A stretch of 64,000 bases of DNA from an uncultured Poribacteria bacterium (GCA_951828515.1 OX639992.1:4194217-4258216), one strand, 5' to 3'. Counted from the first letter of the stretch, positions 7,301 to 47,013 are shown. A program made the numbers and translations. The notes: generated by a model not told the origin, from the letters alone.

Positions 7301-7842
7301 CTATCGGCTTTCAGCAATCGGCTTTCAGAAAGAGAATCTCTTTGCTGACTGCTATGTAGAGAGGGGAAAATTGGATCGTCTGGTGTAATACGAATATTTT
7401 CAACGTTTCTTATCTCTGGACGTGCCTGAATGACAGTGACAATTGGTGTTCCTACGATTGGGATACCGATGCGTTGTGTGTAGATAGGTAGACGCGGTTT
7501 GCCCACGTCGAGCGTCCAATCTGCACCCGCAAAATAGATTTCGGTATACTGGCTATCAGCCATCAGCCGTCGGCTATCAGTGGAATGTGTGGCACTTGCA
7601 GACGTTTTGTCCGCTACAATGCCCTCTGACTGACTACTGACTGCTGACTGCTGACTGCTATTCCTGACTTGGACTTCAGGTAGTGTGAAGCGAGCTGTGA
7701 GTGTGTCCGATGTGATTGCGAGAATCTGTAGAGAGTTTTTGCTTACGGGGTTCCCCGATGCTGTTGTTTGTGCTACAGAAACCAATGTTGGAACAGTGTA
7801 GAATGTAAAAAACAGGGCTAAGAAAAATTGAATCTTTCTCAT
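1330..7842 (-). CDS. Secreted gingipain-type (C25) cysteine peptidase, 2170 residues
   Basis: The N-terminus MRKIQFFLALFFTFYTVPTLVSVAQT is a Sec signal peptide. A C25-propeptide-like region (about residues 95-300) is followed by a large beta-rich part and then the peptidase domain (about 655-1030) with YVVITHPDF, YVLLVGDAHYDY, the catalytic His in EYTGHGG (about 907) and the catalytic Cys in TTTCLNG (about 939). A long beta-sandwich region follows, and the last 90 residues (…FNVPNPTVDGRTFFTYHL… WDGRDEIGMRCANGVYLYRV) form a FlgD-like Ig domain of the sort that ends many secreted FCB-group proteins. Gingipain-like proteins cleave extracellular proteins or act as sortases of such secretion systems; which applies here is unknown. 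Two stretches near the N-terminus (complement of 7300-7354 and 7551-7665) are in-frame copies of the dispersed repeat and read as Ser/Gln-rich sequence. The start has CCGCAAGGTAAATTAAAAAG just upstream. Confidence 0.88.
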   Translation of the reverse strand: MRKIQFFLALFFTFYTVPTLVSVAQTTASGNPVSKNSLQILAITSDTLTARFTLPEVQVRNSSQQSAVSSQSEGIVADKTSASATHSTDSRRLMADSQYTEIYFAGADWTLDVGKPRLPIYTQRIGIPIVGTPIVTVIQARPEIRNVENIRITPDDPIFPSLHSSQQRDSLSESRLLKADSHKAFYPRQLVEAIPVGFVREQRIASLQINPIQYNSTTKQLKIFKSVTFRITFPPFPTTDGTVSAAPSTFSRNSPAFEGLFQGTLRNYEQAKPWRSQRRTSYGNHAYGAPTLTVSNTHRFKIRVTRTDLYRITYNNIKAAAGIEPEDIDLDTIRLESSGKKQGIYVFDENGNDTLDPGEQLVFYGRALADNKFTDENVYWLRFALQGEPNVGIEGSRVEERDATPRTPNLVAPTAFLSRARFEKNVHHDVLAGTEIKSELADHYFWVAFRGGNVDTSRKDLPIEVPLAVPRLAIDRLATLRLKFQGASRRGNALHKARISFNGLQLGRLVEWKRQGSQIAIRSIPHARVHNNQVNFMRIESLDTNKTPAGSYDFYLDWYEFDYWRSFQAQANRLEFNTNTEPRNRGKVQYNVRNIFHDTIDVYEINENGITSRLTGGKVSRIGASHQILFEDSVNQYTRYFVISRSSYRSINALVPTPPTPLRNPSNQADYVVITHPDFTENIQPLVEFRRSQGLTTMIVDIGDIYNEFSDGLFNPFAIRRFLRYAYNSWQQPAPTYVLLVGDAHYDYKNTTVALYREDPNFRGTYNLYPIFVPTYHGWAPASGETAMDQRFVNISGEDALPDMLIGRLSVQTREELATMVEKIINYEKNIKTGLWQGTLIQVADDHTDNPSDGVFEASRDELIQEIIPVGYDTRQIYLRKIRSPERTRSQIRAAINRGALAIEYTGHGGIQTWADEAIFHSEDVVGLRNRYLPFVITTTCLNGQFDKPQQVGNFCLSEQFLLGKYGAIATLSATRLTYGTANAEFDKDLFESLFGVGREPKLVINSDGGLPSTIGHIVADAKISFVSRIRNTQWIPGTEQYTLFGDPASHLARPELNIKVELERIALNKAHEIVIKANEVGTTEGVFDRVSRIGVTGGENFRIATDFSTESLSAFATFANHYDDNISNDLVQRTGGRVWKGEYGTIRLDVPNSALPGGGVARIFAYDDTRAAIGGTRFWVDTPVVHDIRETIDIKVTDTLSISVLVVDDKGPAGVRSIKVLWDDTATFKDQTISMIPARAPLGDVPLGGQWYELEKAIPLPQGGRQVRYRLLITDSTGHELAIPSKTERNIVKVPEGPNIAIGTDEADRAPIQYTFDEEKNGYQLIGEIVNIGGRPVRFDIEVVFAEGNPDKEGDSIIDEDADIIGRVIIKPTDWTDGIHTLQKVTAILDLDKPLTTGVHKIYVLADPDDPEIEDKIIGKIQESRQFDNKQHVSFIVNEFNYKPQEALTAFSLDRVFDIHFPANSLDAEPQNKAGIPLSVSSQLPTDPSQPDLQFAPIPRVAALRRGLIRQGAEVSQYYEPTFRTGVTALKKPAELKLRFDESALEDTVREETLLQPDTPAFKTALAELADQLAVYAWQADPSAWRRLPSQIHYTSEGDFLLENYVTPTQMENASEQELDASAISINPNLTPAGTWILLFLDSDEYEVFLKRKGEALIQKLDKPGQLDNPFREEGFGLEIRIPRKESTPLGVNYTFEFADILAFETDYDPGGDVVLTETWNANLGNGNATVNSRPGPNGEFEIGDWFIFFTDPVRYELRDASAEAIHHPNGVKVRGKINEPLYLSHLGLDIIVTASSENFNFGDKVKFSSARVGTITAEVSELTQFALMRSTDTEPPAFSIWVDGLQPQTGSVIPPRPNISIVLQDTNGIDTDFLTIARQKDSGPLELITDYELRTQGGFQTVPIDYQPILFPGEHTFNITAQDFNGNAIGGDEGLVVYRFFVTEAPDLTPPTIDIRVTAFGTGSTREPLDEPLIDGTVLTEQPRFKITLTDDSALDETAFRLNFGSVYETPESLDATDYTETFDPAAPTNADITYAPDLANDEYQLHITVADTSENTAELVTTFILDEEVTLSEVFNVPNPTVDGRTFFTYHLAQAPDTVTIKIYSVNGRLLRTLVDGSANRGANETRWDGRDEIGMRCANGVYLYRVIAHTEDGSRIEQIGKLAILR
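7300..7354 (-). repeat. In-frame dispersed repeat inside the C25 peptidase gene
   Basis: On the minus strand this reads AGCAGTCAGCAAAGAGATTCTCTTTCTGAAAGCC and continues with CGATTGCTGAAAGCCGATAGCC. The AAAGAGATTCTCTTT core is a hairpin. The same wording (CTCTTGCTGAAAGCCGAAAGCC) occurs between genes at 57552-57573. Here it is translated as SSQQRDSLSESRLLKADS, in the prodomain region. Confidence 0.8.
7551..7665 (-). repeat. In-frame dispersed repeat pair inside the C25 peptidase gene
   Basis: An array of AGCAGTCAGC words on the minus strand (translated as SSQQSAVSSQS) and a second block GATAGCCGACGGCTGATGGCTGATAGCC (translated as DSRRLMADSQ) flank about 40 bases of other sequence. The words match the intergenic repeats. 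The reading frame is kept through both arms. Confidence 0.8.
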
Positions 7843-8103
7843 CTTTTTAATTTACCTTGCGGGTAAGTGTCGTGGTCTATTATCTGAAGATTTTTGATTT
7901 AGAGTTGAAGAAACACCCCGCTGACTCTCACTGCGAGGCAATATGCGCAAATGTAATACATTGTCCCGCAAGTCCACACGCGACTTGCGCTACGGATTTA
8001 GTCTCTCCCCAGACTAAATCCAGCGTTGATTCGCAAAAACCCCTACGCTTCGTTTTGGGCTTGTTTCTTTGTTTGTTTTTTTTTATGAAATCTTCTATTT
8101 TTT
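7843..8103. repeat. Gene-free spacer with two perfect hairpins
   Basis: Between pdxA and the C25 gene. One hairpin is CGCAAGTC/GACTTGCG (7967-7974 with 7982-7989); it has a relative at 13884-13906 with the changed but still paired stem CGCAAGCC/GGCTTGCG. The second is GGATTTAGTCT/AGACTAAATCC (7994-8004 with 8011-8021). A T-rich tract (8069-8104) precedes the pdxA stop on the plus strand. The C25 start context (complement of about 7843-7865) lies at the left edge. Confidence 0.75.
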
Positions 8104-28609: not shown

Positions 28610-29557
28610 CTACCTACGCCACCAACTCTTTTTACCCTGATACGACACAAGGAGTTTTGAAACCTCTCGCGCCTTCTTGTCCAGGTGCAATACTGTCTCG
28701 CACGCTTCGATCACTTTCTGTTTAGTATTCTCATCTTGGGTCGTCTGATAAGCATGGTGGTAACTCTGTGCGACAGCGGTATGATACGCCACAGGCTCCA
28801 CGTCTTCGGGGATTTCGGTCGAAAGTTGCGCAAGCATTCCGACTGCCGCATCCCACGCCTCTGCTTCGGCGTGACAAATAACTTGCTGGTAGCGCAGATG
28901 GTGTTGCGATGGATCTAACCAATGCGCCTGCTCATAACACATCACCGCCTCCGAGTGAGCCGCATTGGCGACATGTAACTGCGCAAGCTCGATATAAAAA
29001 GCGGACAACCCGCTCTCTGCTATTGTATAAAGTGATACGCCAGTACTGGCGAGCCAGTCTCTCTCTAACAGGAAGTCGATCGCTGAGTTCCGTTCTTCCT
29101 CTGTGATTTGGATATCGGTGAGGAGATGCTTCGCAACGGCAGCGTTCGGAAAAATTTTGGTGCGACTTTTCAGCAACGGATACGCCTGAACCGCTTTATC
29201 CATCGTGATGAGCTTAATTCCGGTAGCGATGCGGAAAAGCGATACGATCTGGTCGCTGTTTTTGCGGGACATCTCCTCAGCGATCGACTCCCGATTCTCT
29301 GAAAAATGCTGATTGAGTTCCTCAATTGCATCTCGGATCTCGGTGTCGCTTGGGGACAGTTGATGTGCTTTCGCGAAAAACCGTTGCGCCGTAAAGAGCT
29401 CCCTCCACGTCCGATAGATCGTCCCCAGTCGAAAATTCGCGAATGCCAGGGTTGATGTATCGTCAGTTGTGTTGAGGATACTATCATAGACTTGGATGGC
29501 TTCGGCAAGTTTACCTTCGATTTCCAACGCTTGTGCATCGGTGATTGGATCTGACAT
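28610..29557 (-). CDS. TPR-repeat protein
   Basis: Helical tetratricopeptide repeats can be seen, for example ALEIEGKLAEAIQVYDSIL, FANFRLGTIYRTWRELFTAQRFFAKAHQLSPSD, and YIELAQLHVANAAHSEAVMCYEQAHWLDPSQ. The C-terminus YQGKKSWWRR is basic. No signal peptide or enzyme domain is seen, so it is probably a cytosolic scaffold. The start is uncertain: MSDPITDAQ at 29557 fits the repeat pattern and has AAGGA further upstream than usual; a frame extension to 29617 has no ribosome-binding site. Confidence 0.75.
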   Translation of the reverse strand: MSDPITDAQALEIEGKLAEAIQVYDSILNTTDDTSTLAFANFRLGTIYRTWRELFTAQRFFAKAHQLSPSDTEIRDAIEELNQHFSENRESIAEEMSRKNSDQIVSLFRIATGIKLITMDKAVQAYPLLKSRTKIFPNAAVAKHLLTDIQITEEERNSAIDFLLERDWLASTGVSLYTIAESGLSAFYIELAQLHVANAAHSEAVMCYEQAHWLDPSQHHLRYQQVICHAEAEAWDAAVGMLAQLSTEIPEDVEPVAYHTAVAQSYHHAYQTTQDENTKQKVIEACETVLHLDKKAREVSKLLVSYQGKKSWWRR

Positions 29558-29632
29558 AAGGAGAGTTGTTTCCTTGATGGAGTTCTGGATGCGTTTATCA
29601 CATCTACTTTCGTTCATTCATGAATGCTAACA

Positions 29633-29839
29633 CTAACCTTCCGAAATCCACTCTTCTGTCGCTTCCGCGAATTCCTGGGACACATCATCAGAAATCGTCT
29701 GTTCCAAGAGTTCAATCAGATCCTCACGGAATTTAACCCAATCATCCCCGCGGCGGGTAAACCGGTGTTGACCGCCGATTTCAACAAACATTGTGTCGTT
29801 CGGTTCAGACAGTGATTCAAAATAACGTCTAACATTCAT
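29633..29839 (-). CDS. Small hypothetical protein, 68 residues
   Basis: Starts at an ATG with GGAG seven bases upstream and reads MNVRRYFESLSEPNDTMFVEIGG, ending in a very acidic helix (FREDLIELLEQTISDDVSQEFAEATEEW). I do not recognise a family. The frame stays open upstream through a dispersed repeat (giving SAVSSQQSAVSKSR), but that part lies before the ribosome-binding site and is probably untranslated. Confidence 0.65.
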   Translation of the reverse strand: MNVRRYFESLSEPNDTMFVEIGGQHRFTRRGDDWVKFREDLIELLEQTISDDVSQEFAEATEEWISEG

Positions 29840-29858
29840 AATTATTCTCCTTTTTTCG

Positions 29859-29955
29859 CTATCGACTATCGGCATGTGGCGGTTGTGTATAACTTTCTGC
29901 CACAGACGACTCTTGCTGACTGCTGATTGCTGACTGCTGACTGCTGACTGCCATT
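29859..29955. repeat. Dispersed repeat directly after the HAD-IB gene stop
   Basis: On the minus strand AATGGCAGTCAGCAGTCAGC starts at the base after the TAG stop of the HAD gene. The middle has TGTGGC…GCCACA in place of the usual AAGAGG…CCTCTT, a variant shared with the copy at 45119-45206. Confidence 0.8.
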
Positions 29956-30672
29956 CTATAACCATTCGTGCATTTCCCAGCCAGAAGTGAGTGCTTTCTC
30001 ACGGAGTGCTTTCCCGGGGTTCACAACGACGGGATTCCCAACACATTCCAACATAGGCAGGTCGGATTGGCTATCGCCGTAAGCATAACTCTTTTCCAAT
30101 GAAATTCCGTGTTGTTCAGCATACGCTTGCATTGCTTTCGCTTTCTCTTCCCCGATGAGCGGCGCGGTTGTCAGTTTACCGGTGAACTGTCCATTGCGTT
30201 CACCAAGTTGTGGTGCTAAGACAGAATCAATAGCGAGATAATCCGCCATCGGCTGGACAATGAAATCAAGCGAACCGGTTACGAAAACTACAGCGATGCC
30301 TTGCTCTTTGTGCTCCTGAATTTGCACTATCGCCTCAGAGAAGATCTTCGGACGCAGATACACCTCGAACATTTCAGTAGACAACCGCTTAGTTTCGGCA
30401 ACACGCATCCCACGATAATTACGATAAAACACCTCATTGAAACGAGGGCGACTGATTCTGTCCAAAATTAAGTAGTAAACAATTTTGGGGAGAAATCCAA
30501 CGAGCCACAAGCGTTTTAGAAGGAATGGAACCTCGGCAGAGTGCATCCAGATGTAGTAATGGACAATCGTGGACTTCAACAAAGTGCCATCCACATCAAA
30601 AAATGCGACTGCTTTTGGCGCAGCTTGCAAGTCAAAACCTGTTTTTGAAAGTTTCGGGTTCGGATCCGACAT
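29956..30672 (-). CDS. HAD-superfamily subfamily IB hydrolase (SerB/PlsC-partner type)
   Basis: All HAD motifs are present: motif I AFFDVDGTLLKST, motif II VFVTGSLDF, and motif III/IV AYGDSQSDLPMLE with GNPVVVNPG. The long helical insert after motif I (YYIWMHSAEVPFLLKRLWLVGFLPKIVYYL) is typical of subfamily IB enzymes linked to acyltransferases rather than of plain phosphoserine phosphatase. It lies 76 bases downstream of the reductase/adenylation/ACP/PlsC fusion on the same strand, so a phosphatase step in the same lipid pathway is likely. The ATG has the CCGCAAGGTATAATTAAAAAATC context upstream. Confidence 0.87.
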   Translation of the reverse strand: MSDPNPKLSKTGFDLQAAPKAVAFFDVDGTLLKSTIVHYYIWMHSAEVPFLLKRLWLVGFLPKIVYYLILDRISRPRFNEVFYRNYRGMRVAETKRLSTEMFEVYLRPKIFSEAIVQIQEHKEQGIAVVFVTGSLDFIVQPMADYLAIDSVLAPQLGERNGQFTGKLTTAPLIGEEKAKAMQAYAEQHGISLEKSYAYGDSQSDLPMLECVGNPVVVNPGKALREKALTSGWEMHEWL

Positions 30673-30748
30673 GATTTTTTAATTATACCTTGCGGTTTGA
30701 TGAACGGTTTTAGGAACTTTCACGATATTTTTGATGAGCCGTCTTCCA

Positions 30749-33700
30749 CTACGTTTCAGACTCGGGACTTTTTAATTCCTCCTGTTGTCTAAGCGTTACC
30801 CCAAGTTCAGCCACGCGGTTTTGTGCCAATTCTAAGAATTCTTGGTATCTGTCCGGGTCAATCGGTGTTTTGTCTTGATGTGCCCAACTTTCCGGTGGAA
30901 AGGTGAACGGTTCACCAAAAATGATCCGAACAGGATGCTTTTTAGGTAAGTTCCGTCCCTTCGGCAACGCATGATAGGTGCCTTCGATATAAGCCGGTAT
31001 GACCGGGACGTTAGGACTATAGATGAGCAAACTGAGCACTCCGGGTTTGAAAGGTTGAAGCTTACCATCAAGCGAGCGTGTACCTTCGGAGAAGATGAGT
31101 AAACCGTTATTTCGCGCCATTACCTCGTTTGCCGCCCTGAGATCTTGTAGAAACTCAGTGAAATTGCCCTCCCGTTCTATTGGAAGCGCGTTAAGACACG
31201 TCCGAGCAAACCAGCCTTGAAAACGCGTAGCAAACCAGTAATCTCGTGCAGCGAGCACCCAGAGTTGGTATGCCTTCGTTCCCAGAGCAGTAATCACCGT
31301 CAATGTATCCAGGTGACTTGTGTGATTCGGCATAATAATATAGGGTTTGTCCTGTGGAATATGCTCGAGTCCATAGCATTTCAATGAGAAATAGTTCCGA
31401 TAGATACCAGTAACCACGGTGCGGAAGGCACGCGCATACCACCGCGGCATCTGTCCGAATTCCCGATTTCTGTTTTCCGCAGAATCTTCCTTTTCTTTCG
31501 TAATATCCGTCGGGAACGTCTCGATTAACCTGACGACATCACCAACTGTCTCCAAATTGGCGAGGCGTGCATCTGGGATTGTTTCACCGAGCCTCGATTC
31601 GAGAACCAACAGGAGATCGAGTCGCGTGAGTGAGTCAAGTCCTAAATCGGTATCCAAACGACTCTCGCGTTGAATTTGGTGTGCTGGCATGCGTGCCAAT
31701 CGTGCGAGGGTAGAGAGGATTTCTTCTGGTATATCCGATCTGAAGAGTCGGGAATCGGAGTTCCCTCCTACAACATCTGCCGTGGAATCTTCCTGAAGGT
31801 CTGCCATATTTTTAATATGCACTTCCAAACTACGCCTGAGACTTTGCCGATCTACATTTCCATCCGCAGTCTTCGGTAGTGGGTCATCCCAGAAATGGGA
31901 TTTGTGGAATTGTTGGTAACTCGGTAATTCCTTTGCTCGCGCTTGGAGATGGTGCTGAATCTCCGTTTTCGTTGTCTCGTCGAATACTGTCGGCACAATC
32001 ACGGCATGTATCGCCGTATCGGACTCGTCTTCATACGGAATGCCCAAGACACACATTTCAGAGATAGCCGGATTATCCCGATAGAGGGATTCTAACTCGA
32101 CGGGGTAAACGTTCTTTCCAGAAGCGGGAACGATAATATCTTTGCAATGCCCGGTAAGGTAGAGATAACCATCAGCGTCCATATAACCCAAGTCGCCCGT
32201 GTAGAGCCATCCATTGCGAATCGCTTTTTCTGTAGCATCTGTATTCTGATAGTAGCCCTTCATCGTACTCGGTCCCTTAGCGATAATCTCCCCGATACCA
32301 TTGCTATCCGGATTCTCAATTTGAAGTTCCACACCCTCTACCGCTGGTCCCACCGAGCCACGTTTGCTTTTTAGATATGGATTGACACTGAGAACGGGGG
32401 CTGTTTCGGTCATTCCGTAGCCCTGATAAAGTGTCATCCCAAACTTCTGAAATCCGTCGTAAATCGCATCAGAAAGCGAGGCACCGCCACTAACGAGGAC
32501 GCGAATTTCCCCACCCATGACAGCTCGTGCTTTTTCCGCCAAGGTATCACCGGGTGTGTCTGCCCGCGATGCTTGTCGTTCGATTGTGCCTTGAAGCATC
32601 TGAAAAAGACGTGGAACCCCAATAAAAGCCGTGGTCTTCGCCTCTCGCATTGTCTTCAGAAGCGTTGTCGGACGGAGCGCATTGACGTATGCCGCTGTCG
32701 TACCGCTGTAAAGTGCCATCAATAAGCTACACGAGAAGCTCAGCGCATGATACAACGGGAGTGCTGACAGAATCCGCTCCGTATCTGTTGGTGGGAGCGC
32801 TTTTGCCACTGCTTGGACATTAGAAATGAAGCCTTCGTGTGTGAGCATCGCACCTTTCGCTTCAACAGTGGTTCCCATTGTAAAGATAATCGAAGCAACG
32901 GTGTCTGGAGAAACTTCCACATTCGGGAAATCGGCAGGAATCTCTATTTGGCTATCAGGTGTCAGTAAAGAGGTTTCTGTCGCAGTGGGTTTCTCCTCTT
33001 GCTGACTGCTGACTGCTGATTGCTGATTGCTGACTACAATTTCGCAGTTTTTGTTGATGTTTTGTAACATCGTTTCTGGTGTCGATAGGGTTCCCACATC
33101 GGATTTTTCTAATACACTTTCAGAGGCTAAAATTGATTTCGCAGTGGTGAACTTGGCGATTGCCAAAATTTCATGGGCAGGCGTTTGCGCGTCAAGCGGA
33201 ACGACAGCGATACCTATCTGGACAGCGGCGAGGTAAGCGATGCACCATTCGGGCTGGTTTTCAGAAACTAACACCACGCGATCGTCTTTGCGCAGACCAC
33301 TTTCCCACAACTGCCACGCGACTTGGCGCGACAGGGCATACGTCTCCGCATAGGTATACTCTTCCCATCCGCTTTCGTTTGCCATCTGCAGCGCGATTCT
33401 ATCTGGGATTCGCGACGCTTGTATCTTAATCAGATCTACGATTGTTTTGGGGAGGATTTGGTCTGCGGATAGACCGGATTTCGTCTCGGAATAGACGAAA
33501 TCCATTCCTTGTATTACATTTCCATTCCCTGTATTACATTTCAACTCAGGTGATGTTACGGACTCCTCGGATTCATCTTGTGAGTCTGTCTTCTCTTGTT
33601 TAGCGGACGAAGATGCTTCTGTATCGCCTGCTGTGTCATCTTCAATCTTCAAGACATGTCTCTTTATGCCGGGGATATGAATCTCTTGGAAATATCGCTT

Positions 33701-35227
33701 CCAGTGGATCCGTGAAACATCGAAGTTAAAACGCTGCTGTTCTGTCGGTGAAAGCGCATCGTAAAGCCCTTGCGTCTTCTCCGTTTCAAATTGAAAGTTA
33801 GTTCGCGTGTAAGGGGCATAGATTCTGATGTAATGTAAGAGGGCTTTGATACCACTCTGCTTCAGAACGAGTTGACGGCGTTTTCGCTTAGCGGCGCGTA
33901 TCGGGAGTTTGCCGAGCGTCTGAACGGCAAGATCGACCAGACGCATACGACTATCCAATTTCTGCTGAAACTCTTCTAAACTCGGATATTTCCAGATTGG
34001 CACTGCAATCGGTTTGCCATCCTCTAACATTGGATATTTCACAAAATATTCGTAGGTCGCCTCGAAGATACCTCGAAAATAGAGTGGATTCTGCGTTCCT
34101 GTCGCAACATGATACACTTCAATACCACCGCGTCTCGCTGTCGCCTCAGCGGCTGCCAAGATAGCGTTCACGACAAAATCGACAGGGATAATATCAAGAA
34201 TTATATCCGGATCTGCTGGAAAATCTGGAAGTCGCCCTTTCCCGAAACCGACGATCAAAGGCTCGGACATCCGAAATTTACCGAGCCATCCGGGTTCAGG
34301 TTCATCAAAACTGCTCTCGATAATTGAAGGGCGCACGATAGCAGTGGGCAGTTCACCGCGCAATTCCATGATCATCTGCTCAGCGAGGAATTTCATATAG
34401 GTATAAGTGTCGTTCCATCCGCGCGAGCGGGCATGCTTCAACCCTTCCTCAACCAAACGTTCTTCAAGCCAGTCTGTCTTCAGTTCTTCGACTTGCGCTT
34501 CAAGCCCTTTACGCGTCCCTTTTATCTGTGCTTCCGCTTCTTGCTGAAGGTTCGCTAGGGTTTCAGGGGACTCGGCTTCAGCATGGATAGCAGCACTCAG
34601 AGAAAGTAACCCTTCGATCTCCTCAGAGAGCGTTTCCGGAATAGCCATTCCTGTCTTTTCGTTATATTGTGTCGCGTAGGTTTCATAGGGCGGTGGAAGG
34701 TCTTCAGGCACGCGTCCGGGCTTGTCGCCGCAAACGTATGCTGTTGAGATGTGGAGAAACACGGCATCCTGACAACCCTTTGCGAAGTTAACAACATGTT
34801 TCGCCGCGAGGGTGTTCCCCCACAAAGAATCATCGAAAGGGGGATCGAAATCCACAAGACCGGCGATATTAATAAAGACTTGGACTTCGTTCTGGAGTTT
34901 TTGGTATTCCGTATCGTTGAATCCAAGATGCTCGTGAGTGAGATCGCCTTCAACAACCGTCAGTTTCTGCTGTGCCCAGGCATCAAAATTGTCGCCGTGT
35001 AGCCGACGAAGAGACGCAAAAACATCTGAGGTGAGAAGTTCATTTTCTAAGCGTTCTTGAGCGGAAGTGTACTTCCCAGTGGTATCGGTGCGACTTCGAA
35101 TGAGGAGATATATCTTTTGGATATCCGGAAGCGCAGTTAAGATTTTTGCAACCATCGGTTGCCCCAAAAATGCAGTGCCACCAGTAACGAGCAGAACTTT
35201 TCCTCGAAAAAAATCAGTTATTGACAT
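30749..35227 (-). CDS. Four-domain lipid enzyme: fatty acyl reductase, adenylation, acyl carrier, PlsC acyltransferase
   Basis: Residues about 1-395 are a FAR/thioester-reductase NAD(P) domain (VTGGTAFLGQPMV; active-site Y-x-x-x-K in YTYMKFLAE) with a FAR C-terminal part to about 520. A linker precedes an AMP-binding domain (about 590-1130; A3 region TMGTTVEAKG, A5 YQGYGMTETAP, GDLGYMDADGYLYLTG). The usual catalytic Lys of the C-terminal motif is Asn (PKTADGNVDR). An acyl carrier domain has GLDSLTRLD (phosphopantetheine Ser about 1195), and a PlsC domain follows with NHTSHLD (HX4D, about 1302) and FSEGTRS (about 1380). This would load, reduce and transfer fatty chains onto a glycerol backbone. 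The combination, with the HAD enzyme next door, resembles what I recall of myxobacterial ElbD, involved in ether-lipid formation. A dispersed repeat is inserted in frame at residues about 731-760. Confidence 0.88.
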   Translation of the reverse strand: MSITDFFRGKVLLVTGGTAFLGQPMVAKILTALPDIQKIYLLIRSRTDTTGKYTSAQERLENELLTSDVFASLRRLHGDNFDAWAQQKLTVVEGDLTHEHLGFNDTEYQKLQNEVQVFINIAGLVDFDPPFDDSLWGNTLAAKHVVNFAKGCQDAVFLHISTAYVCGDKPGRVPEDLPPPYETYATQYNEKTGMAIPETLSEEIEGLLSLSAAIHAEAESPETLANLQQEAEAQIKGTRKGLEAQVEELKTDWLEERLVEEGLKHARSRGWNDTYTYMKFLAEQMIMELRGELPTAIVRPSIIESSFDEPEPGWLGKFRMSEPLIVGFGKGRLPDFPADPDIILDIIPVDFVVNAILAAAEATARRGGIEVYHVATGTQNPLYFRGIFEATYEYFVKYPMLEDGKPIAVPIWKYPSLEEFQQKLDSRMRLVDLAVQTLGKLPIRAAKRKRRQLVLKQSGIKALLHYIRIYAPYTRTNFQFETEKTQGLYDALSPTEQQRFNFDVSRIHWKRYFQEIHIPGIKRHVLKIEDDTAGDTEASSSAKQEKTDSQDESEESVTSPELKCNTGNGNVIQGMDFVYSETKSGLSADQILPKTIVDLIKIQASRIPDRIALQMANESGWEEYTYAETYALSRQVAWQLWESGLRKDDRVVLVSENQPEWCIAYLAAVQIGIAVVPLDAQTPAHEILAIAKFTTAKSILASESVLEKSDVGTLSTPETMLQNINKNCEIVVSNQQSAVSSQQEEKPTATETSLLTPDSQIEIPADFPNVEVSPDTVASIIFTMGTTVEAKGAMLTHEGFISNVQAVAKALPPTDTERILSALPLYHALSFSCSLLMALYSGTTAAYVNALRPTTLLKTMREAKTTAFIGVPRLFQMLQGTIERQASRADTPGDTLAEKARAVMGGEIRVLVSGGASLSDAIYDGFQKFGMTLYQGYGMTETAPVLSVNPYLKSKRGSVGPAVEGVELQIENPDSNGIGEIIAKGPSTMKGYYQNTDATEKAIRNGWLYTGDLGYMDADGYLYLTGHCKDIIVPASGKNVYPVELESLYRDNPAISEMCVLGIPYEDESDTAIHAVIVPTVFDETTKTEIQHHLQARAKELPSYQQFHKSHFWDDPLPKTADGNVDRQSLRRSLEVHIKNMADLQEDSTADVVGGNSDSRLFRSDIPEEILSTLARLARMPAHQIQRESRLDTDLGLDSLTRLDLLLVLESRLGETIPDARLANLETVGDVVRLIETFPTDITKEKEDSAENRNREFGQMPRWYARAFRTVVTGIYRNYFSLKCYGLEHIPQDKPYIIMPNHTSHLDTLTVITALGTKAYQLWVLAARDYWFATRFQGWFARTCLNALPIEREGNFTEFLQDLRAANEVMARNNGLLIFSEGTRSLDGKLQPFKPGVLSLLIYSPNVPVIPAYIEGTYHALPKGRNLPKKHPVRIIFGEPFTFPPESWAHQDKTPIDPDRYQEFLELAQNRVAELGVTLRQQEELKSPESET
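32948..33034 (-). repeat. In-frame dispersed repeat inside the four-domain lipid enzyme gene
   Basis: On the minus strand AGTCAGCAATCAGCAATCAGC then AGTCAGCAAGAGGAG…AACCTCTTTACTGACACCTGATAGCC. The AAGAGG/CCTCTT hairpin of the intergenic family is present. It is translated as SNQQSAVSSQQEEKPTATETSLLTPDSQ, between conserved blocks of the AMP-binding domain, just before the A3 loop. Confidence 0.85.
33493..33542. repeat. Short tandem repeat in the linker of the lipid enzyme gene
   Basis: TCCATTCCTTGTATTACATT is followed directly by TCCATTCCCTGTATTACATT. The TGTATTACATT word recurs at 38053-38064 and, inverted (AATGTAATACA), at 7950-7960. In this gene it codes for the linker between reductase and adenylation domains (NTGNGNVIQG on the minus strand). 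Confidence 0.6.
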
Positions 35228-35569
35228 AATTTTCTTTTCTGTGTCATGATAGATATTGGAATATTTTTAATTTTACTTTGCGGGTGAATAACGCCGGTTT
35301 CGACTTTGACATACCATTCTCACCAGCCGCCCGCGCCGTTGTTGCGAGCTCCGGTTTTGGTTTAATGTCTCATTCTCCACCAAGAACCCGCTCGTAATGG
35401 AATCGAGAGCGGCACAGAGGCACATAAATTAAAAGCCTCGTATTGTTCTCAACTTATACGCGTGAATTTCGTCTAATCTTTCGGTAAATCACCCAAAACG
35501 CTGTTTACACGCCAAACATCCTATTAAAAATAACATATTTGCCATAAAAAGTCAAAGGCTGAATAGATA
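35228..35569. other. Gene-free spacer between divergent genes
   Basis: No gene or clear promoter is seen. About 40 bases upstream of the lipid-enzyme ATG the minus strand carries CCGCAAAGTAAAATTAAAAAT, a displaced copy of the start-codon context found elsewhere. The rest shows no dispersed repeat and no strong hairpin. Confidence 0.5.
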
Positions 35570-42620: not shown

Positions 42621-42714
42621 AGATCGCAAGCCTGAAACGAAGTGGAAGGCGACTCTATGAAAATAACTGTCAATGCTCAAACCGACTTCATCGAACCGCA
42701 AGGAAAATTAAAAA

Positions 42715-43776: not shown

Positions 43777-43842
43777 TGAAATTAGGTCCTCCTTAAATGG
43801 CATAATTTTGCTTCGCATTGTCCCACAAGGAATAATTAAAAA

Positions 43843-46971: not shown

Positions 46972-47013
46972 CTGCTGATTGCTGACCGCTGATTGCCGAC
47001 TGGTATTAAAAAT
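46972..47013. repeat. Dispersed repeat arm just before the VWA gene start
   Basis: TGCTGATTGCTGACCGCTGATTGCCGACTGGTATTAAAAAT then ATG. The repeat forms the translation-initiation region of the next gene, as in front of clpP and rnj. Confidence 0.7.

Follow-up and report, generated by a model that had tools for sequence, protein, structure and literature searches.

An ElbD-type system is a core trait of Poribacteria, and the copy studied here lies in a 64-kb window, the whole stretch of DNA that was analysed, from a genome assembled as one contig of 5.85 Mb. Its central gene encodes a fatty acyl reductase (FAR), an activating (ACS) domain, an ACP and a PlsC acyltransferase in a single chain, and is followed by genes for a HAD phosphatase and a conserved 68-aa protein. 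The ElbD-type megaenzyme itself is already known from this phylum and is not new. To that picture we add a catalytic lysine lost from the ACS domain, the near-absence of the ether-bond enzyme AGPS beside a near-universal ElbD, a history of fusion and fission, and the 68-aa gene. The best explanation, which we rate at slightly better than even, is a poribacterial ElbD system for fatty-alcohol-containing glycerolipids.

Architecture of the locus and its published relatives

We delineated the megaenzyme and its neighbours, all encoded on the minus strand. The megaenzyme ORF (30749-35227) specifies 1492 aa, and Pfam searches place on this one chain, in order, an alcohol-forming reductase (NAD_binding_4 at residues 14-356, E 1.2e-60, and Sterile at residues 461-527, E 8.1e-15), AMP-binding (residues 603-993, E 1.3e-74, with an AMP-binding_C match at E 1.8e-7), PP-binding (the ACP, residues 1169-1235, E 5.3e-9) and Acyltransferase (PlsC, residues 1282-1414, E 7.3e-21). 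The FAR domain (33623-35227, residues 1-535) matches PDB 7eoz ('Fatty acyl-CoA reductase') at E 6.5e-82 and has the features of an alcohol-forming FAR, namely NAD_binding_4 with a C-terminal Sterile domain, the Rossmann motif TGGTAFLG and a Y-x-x-x-K motif in place as YTYMK. A variable linker (about residues 536-590) leads to the ACS domain (31808-33458, about residues 590-1140). Beyond it, the ACP keeps its serine motif GLDSL, and the PlsC domain (about residues 1250-1480) carries the PlsC/AGPAT motifs NHx4D, as NHTSHLD, and EGTRS, as SEGTRS, both conserved across relatives.

The HAD gene (29956-30672, 238 aa) is identified by Pfam HAD (E 6.1e-36) and by NCBIfam TIGR01490 (HAD-IB hyp1; 148 bits against a cut-off of 98.3), and its FDVDGTL and GDSQSD motifs are intact. 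It lies downstream of the megaenzyme in all 57 orthologous loci that we collected. The ORFs, the Pfam and NCBIfam assignments and these 57 loci bear out the original prediction of a reductase-adenylation-ACP-PlsC polypeptide with a neighbouring HAD phosphatase, a gene set that overlooked a third conserved member at 29633-29839. This previously unreported gene (MNVRRYFES..., 68 aa) has 19 invariant columns in 45 orthologues and stands 3' of the HAD gene in 56/57 loci; in the remaining locus, L020, the contig ends there. An AlphaFold model of its product (mean pLDDT 79) is arranged beta-beta-beta-alpha-alpha. The protein belongs to no Pfam family, relaxed-E Pfam and PHROGs searches returned nothing consistent, and a Foldseek comparison of the model with the PDB gave no convincing fold match (best E 0.48). 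A longer, mechanically called ORF of 110 aa (29633-29965) was rejected for the 68-aa form because relatives have only that part in common; its N-terminal extension derives from a heptamer repeat. A TPR protein (28610-29617), found at the corresponding place in many relatives, though not in every one, is a peripheral member of the neighbourhood.

Two kinds of repeat are found around these genes. The heptamer TGACTGC forms an array at 29910-29955, 5' of the 68-aa gene, an unstranded array at 32996-33041 that is read in frame inside the ACS coding sequence (SNQQSAVSSQQ), and further arrays at 7635-7661 and 46973-46992. A 20-nt leader repeat, CCGCAAGGTAWAATTAAAAA, occurs on the minus strand at 30676-30695, where it ends 3 nt short of the HAD gene's start codon, and at 35264-35283, 36 nt ahead of that of the megaenzyme, with additional window copies at 7843-7862, 43823-43842 and about 42695-42714. 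The genome holds 409 copies at ≤2 mismatches, and the reversed control has none. In 12-13 of 20 sampled exact copies the repeat ends 0-1 nt before an ATG, and tandem copies occur; most relatives have a different leader before the HAD gene. The repeat behaves as if it were a portable ribosome-binding leader spreading ahead of start codons.

We compared the locus with ElbD of Myxococcus xanthus by published description. PMC9131029 describes that protein as FAR1-like, ACS, ACP and AGPAT-like domains encoded in the elbA-E operon, with a HAD gene, elbB. The poribacterial chain has the same order in one polypeptide and a HAD-superfamily gene in its cluster, so that the ElbD-like domain set named in the original prediction agrees with the published architecture; the HAD-IB protein is a possible counterpart of elbB. 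The neighbourhoods differ in that no elbA/elbE-type NAD-epimerase appears among the poribacterial neighbours scanned, which is not a strict ElbD requirement; in myxobacteria, elbD/elbE are described as occurring also unlinked to elbB/elbC (PMC9131029). The poribacterial locus has the 68-aa protein and TPR genes instead. A search for CarF/PEDS1 (Lipid_desat PF10520) had no match in the window's genome, and the control genomes were likewise silent.

Homologues of elbD in Poribacteria were named by Lorenzen et al. 2014, as cited in PMC9426513, and it is this literature that asserts the sequence relationship to M. xanthus ElbD. The same 2022 report describes sponge gene cluster families, poribacterial and acidobacterial, with an elbD-type core gene. 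As that core gene is reported there from Poribacteria MAGs, the window locus very probably belongs to the same group. The available text of PMC9426513 carries no comment on the catalytic lysine, AGPS distribution, fusion/fission history or the 68-aa gene. Our own contig search for relatives returned Poribacteria alone, and the best plasmid matches were FAR-less fusions or stand-alone domains.

Distribution, co-inheritance and gene fission in Poribacteria

The 57 orthologous loci share 48-90% identity across virtually their whole length (L052 stops at a contig end); all are labelled Poribacteria, which marks the source of the window as a poribacterium. With this identity, and with the HAD gene downstream in every one of them, conservation of the locus is not due to chance. 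Counting genomes with a best E < 1e-150, the system is present in 76/85 poribacterial genomes, across families and orders. Its parts are co-inherited: inter-locus distances of FAR, ACS and PlsC correlate with one another at r 0.965-0.986 (mirror-tree), and with those of HAD at r 0.93-0.954. In a tree, poribacterial ACS-ACP-PlsC forms a single clade (support 99/99) apart from the genome's own ligases and the fusobacterial and Rubrobacter fusions, a placement to be taken with caution given the long outgroup branches. In this comparison, which covers poribacterial sequences, own ligases and the fusobacterial and Rubrobacter fusions, the domains do not scatter to unrelated enzymes, and within the phylum the phylogeny is in keeping with the original prediction.

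Sponge gene-cluster mining classes elbD-type clusters as NRPS-like, as described in PMC9426513, which would fit a cluster that yields a diffusible NRPS-like compound of the symbiosis with sponges rather than a membrane lipid. We consider this very unlikely, since the spread over 76/85 genomes, the co-inheritance and the constant HAD and small-gene neighbours indicate core metabolism and not a sporadic cluster.

The single chain is not universal. Family f7, which branches as the sister group of the fused forms, encodes FAR and ACS-ACP-PlsC in two adjoining genes with the same HAD gene behind, and in G006 the split genes overlap or abut; in the taxonomic order of the window's organism the two are fused. 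The FAR/ACS linker is the most variable region of the megaenzyme, and the frame is broken there in 10/57 loci (L017, L018, L020, L048, L052, L053, L055, L056, L060 and L064), several with repeat-like insertions. From the contig sequences as assembled, we read these interruptions as natural gene fission. Because family f7 keeps both halves as neighbours with the same HAD gene behind, we further read FAR and ACS-ACP-PlsC as acting in one pathway for which a single chain is not required. In the window, a tandem 20-nt duplication at 33501-33540, in the linker coding region, is a further sign that the linker tolerates insertions. At L099:9942-12148, in a deep-branching poribacterium, FAR, ACS-ACP-PlsC and HAD run gaplessly into a DNA-methylase-like PF01555 gene and a zinc alcohol dehydrogenase.

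An ACS domain with altered adenylation motifs

The original prediction held that the polypeptide has all the activities needed for fatty-acid loading. We regard such loading as doubtful, because the ACS domain has lost the A10 lysine and carries a changed A3 P-loop. An intact lysine and P-loop are features of an active fatty acyl-AMP/CoA ligase of the ANL superfamily, in which acetylation of the A10 lysine blocks adenylation of the carboxylic acid (PMC4053389). A10 of the window protein reads PKTADGNVDR, with N in the catalytic-lysine column; A3 reads TMGTTVEAKG against the standard TSGTTGxPKG, and A8 reads GHCKD against GRxKD, whereas A5 (YGMTE) and A7 (TGD) are standard. The lysine is absent from 63 of the 68 distinct poribacterial proteins, the window protein included, its place being taken by many different residues, and is kept in five (L041, L042, L044, L100 and L101). 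We make no claim that its loss is a poribacterial novelty; the comparison covered poribacterial proteins and controls. Among the controls, two of the genome's own ligases, the G012 ligase and the ACS-ACP-PlsC fusions of Rubrobacter, Ilyobacter and Fusobacterium have the lysine, and the control ligases have TSGTTG at A3 in all cases except own_L004 (TSGTQG). From these motifs, low adenylation activity of the ACS domain is predicted.

The domain is nevertheless not a decaying pseudo-domain. dN/dS is about 0.03-0.11 in all domains save the C-terminal part of ACS, where it is mildly relaxed (0.06-0.18); the N-terminal part of ACS is at 0.05-0.11. The ACS domain is thus under purifying selection, and no domain is decaying.

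These data bear on whether the protein might be an Aas-type enzyme of lysophospholipid recycling or remodelling whose acyl-ACP synthetase and acyltransferase have acquired a FAR. ACS-ACP-PlsC fusions of Fusobacterium, Ilyobacter and Rubrobacter match the megaenzyme's last three domains in kind and order and have no FAR, as such an origin would suggest. Recycling by an Aas-type enzyme, however, depends on adenylation of free fatty acid, and the fusobacterial and Rubrobacter proteins, unlike the poribacterial one, have a canonical A3 (TSGTTG) and A10 (GK(L/I)RR). The FAR domain is moreover as conserved as the remaining domains by dN/dS, and we find this reading decidedly improbable.

Ether-bond partner genes and the proposed pathway

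We searched for the enzymes that could accompany an ether-lipid pathway. AGPS was not found in the window's genome: none of its four PF02913 (FAD-oxidase_C) proteins has the HHHG motif, three bearing instead the GEHG signature of glycolate/lactate-oxidase types and one being GlcE-like without GEHG, and the best AGPS match, at 103 bits, is confined to the FAD domain. The four candidates (L066-L069) were rejected as GlcD/GlcE/YdiJ-type. Neither was PF09989 found in this genome, a family that we take to mark Ger/PlsA proteins of the anaerobic plasmalogen/Ger route and that was detected in 4/14 controls.

Across the phylum, full-length AGPS is present in 3/85 genomes, each belonging to f4, a family other than that of the window's organism. 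The G024 gene is the immediate neighbour behind the ElbD homologue, with a short-chain dehydrogenase next in line; its protein scores 496 bits against peroxisomal AGPS 4bby and has an SHHHGVGK motif. In G025 and G026, AGPS and the dehydrogenase are on a contig other than that of the ElbD homologue. These animal-type genes, at L110:9487-11238 (= L146:369-2120), L147:3721-5592 and L148:2593-4440, are each followed by the dehydrogenase, and the family f4 proteins are 50-51% identical to the G024 copy. Among the part of the matches inspected for the motif, shorter HHHG proteins occur in two further genomes, G001 and G016. The ElbD-AGPS adjacency in one genome, G024, is the best contextual support within the phylum for an ether-lipid role. 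FAR and acyltransferase chemistry is also shared with the animal peroxisomal FAR1/GNPAT/AGPS pathway, and family f4 has in addition an animal-type AGPS with the dehydrogenase behind; in animals these are separate proteins, and the window's genome differs in that AGPS was not found there. In M. xanthus, as described in PMC9131029, elbD mutants lose most ether lipids, whereas disrupting MXAN_1676, which encodes AGPS, has only slight consequences, so that ElbD there acts largely without AGPS, a situation like that of the window's genome. Homologues of elbD have also been reported in Pontiella without detectable ether lipids (PMC11868695).

In the poribacterial ElbD pathway that we favour, the FAR domain would reduce an ACP-held fatty acyl chain to a fatty alcohol, the PlsC domain would add an acyl chain to a glycerol-phosphate-type acceptor, and the HAD protein would dephosphorylate acceptor or product to give alkyl/acyl glycerolipids. 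With no A10 lysine, the ACS domain may not adenylate efficiently, and we propose as the likelier route that the chain is supplied as acyl-ACP or acyl-CoA by another enzyme; one possible source is a canonical acyl-CoA ligase encoded at about 2.139 Mb (G000:C1). From the domains and their context we infer the substrates, the sequence of reactions and an ether as the product. Of the ether or plasmalogen-like lipids originally predicted, ether lipids are plausible but unproven, the ElbD family and the AGPS context in G024 speaking for them and the failure to find AGPS or PF09989 in the window's genome against; plasmalogens are unsupported.

That failure would also fit a megaenzyme making fatty alcohols for another use, such as wax esters, alcohol-capped glycolipids or secondary metabolites, with PlsC acylating an ordinary lysophospholipid and no ether bond formed. 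FAR/FarA proteins do serve wax-ester synthesis in other organisms (PMC11948995), but a WS/DGAT search had no match in the window's genome (controls were likewise silent). A wax FAR needs no fusion or linkage to PlsC and HAD, yet this arrangement is kept in 76 genomes, and AGPS adjoins the ElbD homologue in G024; we therefore regard this alternative as somewhat unlikely. A bolder form of the ElbD reading is that the ACS domain gave up adenylation and now acts as a platform for acyl binding or ACP docking, acyl-ACP being reduced and the alkyl ether made with no AGPS, Ger or other known ether synthase involved, by novel chemistry residing in ElbD, the HAD protein and the 68-aa protein. We consider it improbable.

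In M. xanthus, ElbD outweighs AGPS in ether-lipid formation. With ElbD near-universal and AGPS near-absent, Poribacteria offer a natural test of whether ElbD is sufficient. The missing A10 lysine makes a biochemical prediction, that there should be little ATP-dependent adenylation and that acyl-ACP should be reduced, and the naturally split forms provide smaller proteins that are simpler to assay. If the proposed pathway is true, Poribacteria would be a candidate source of the alkyl glycerol ethers that occur in marine sponges.
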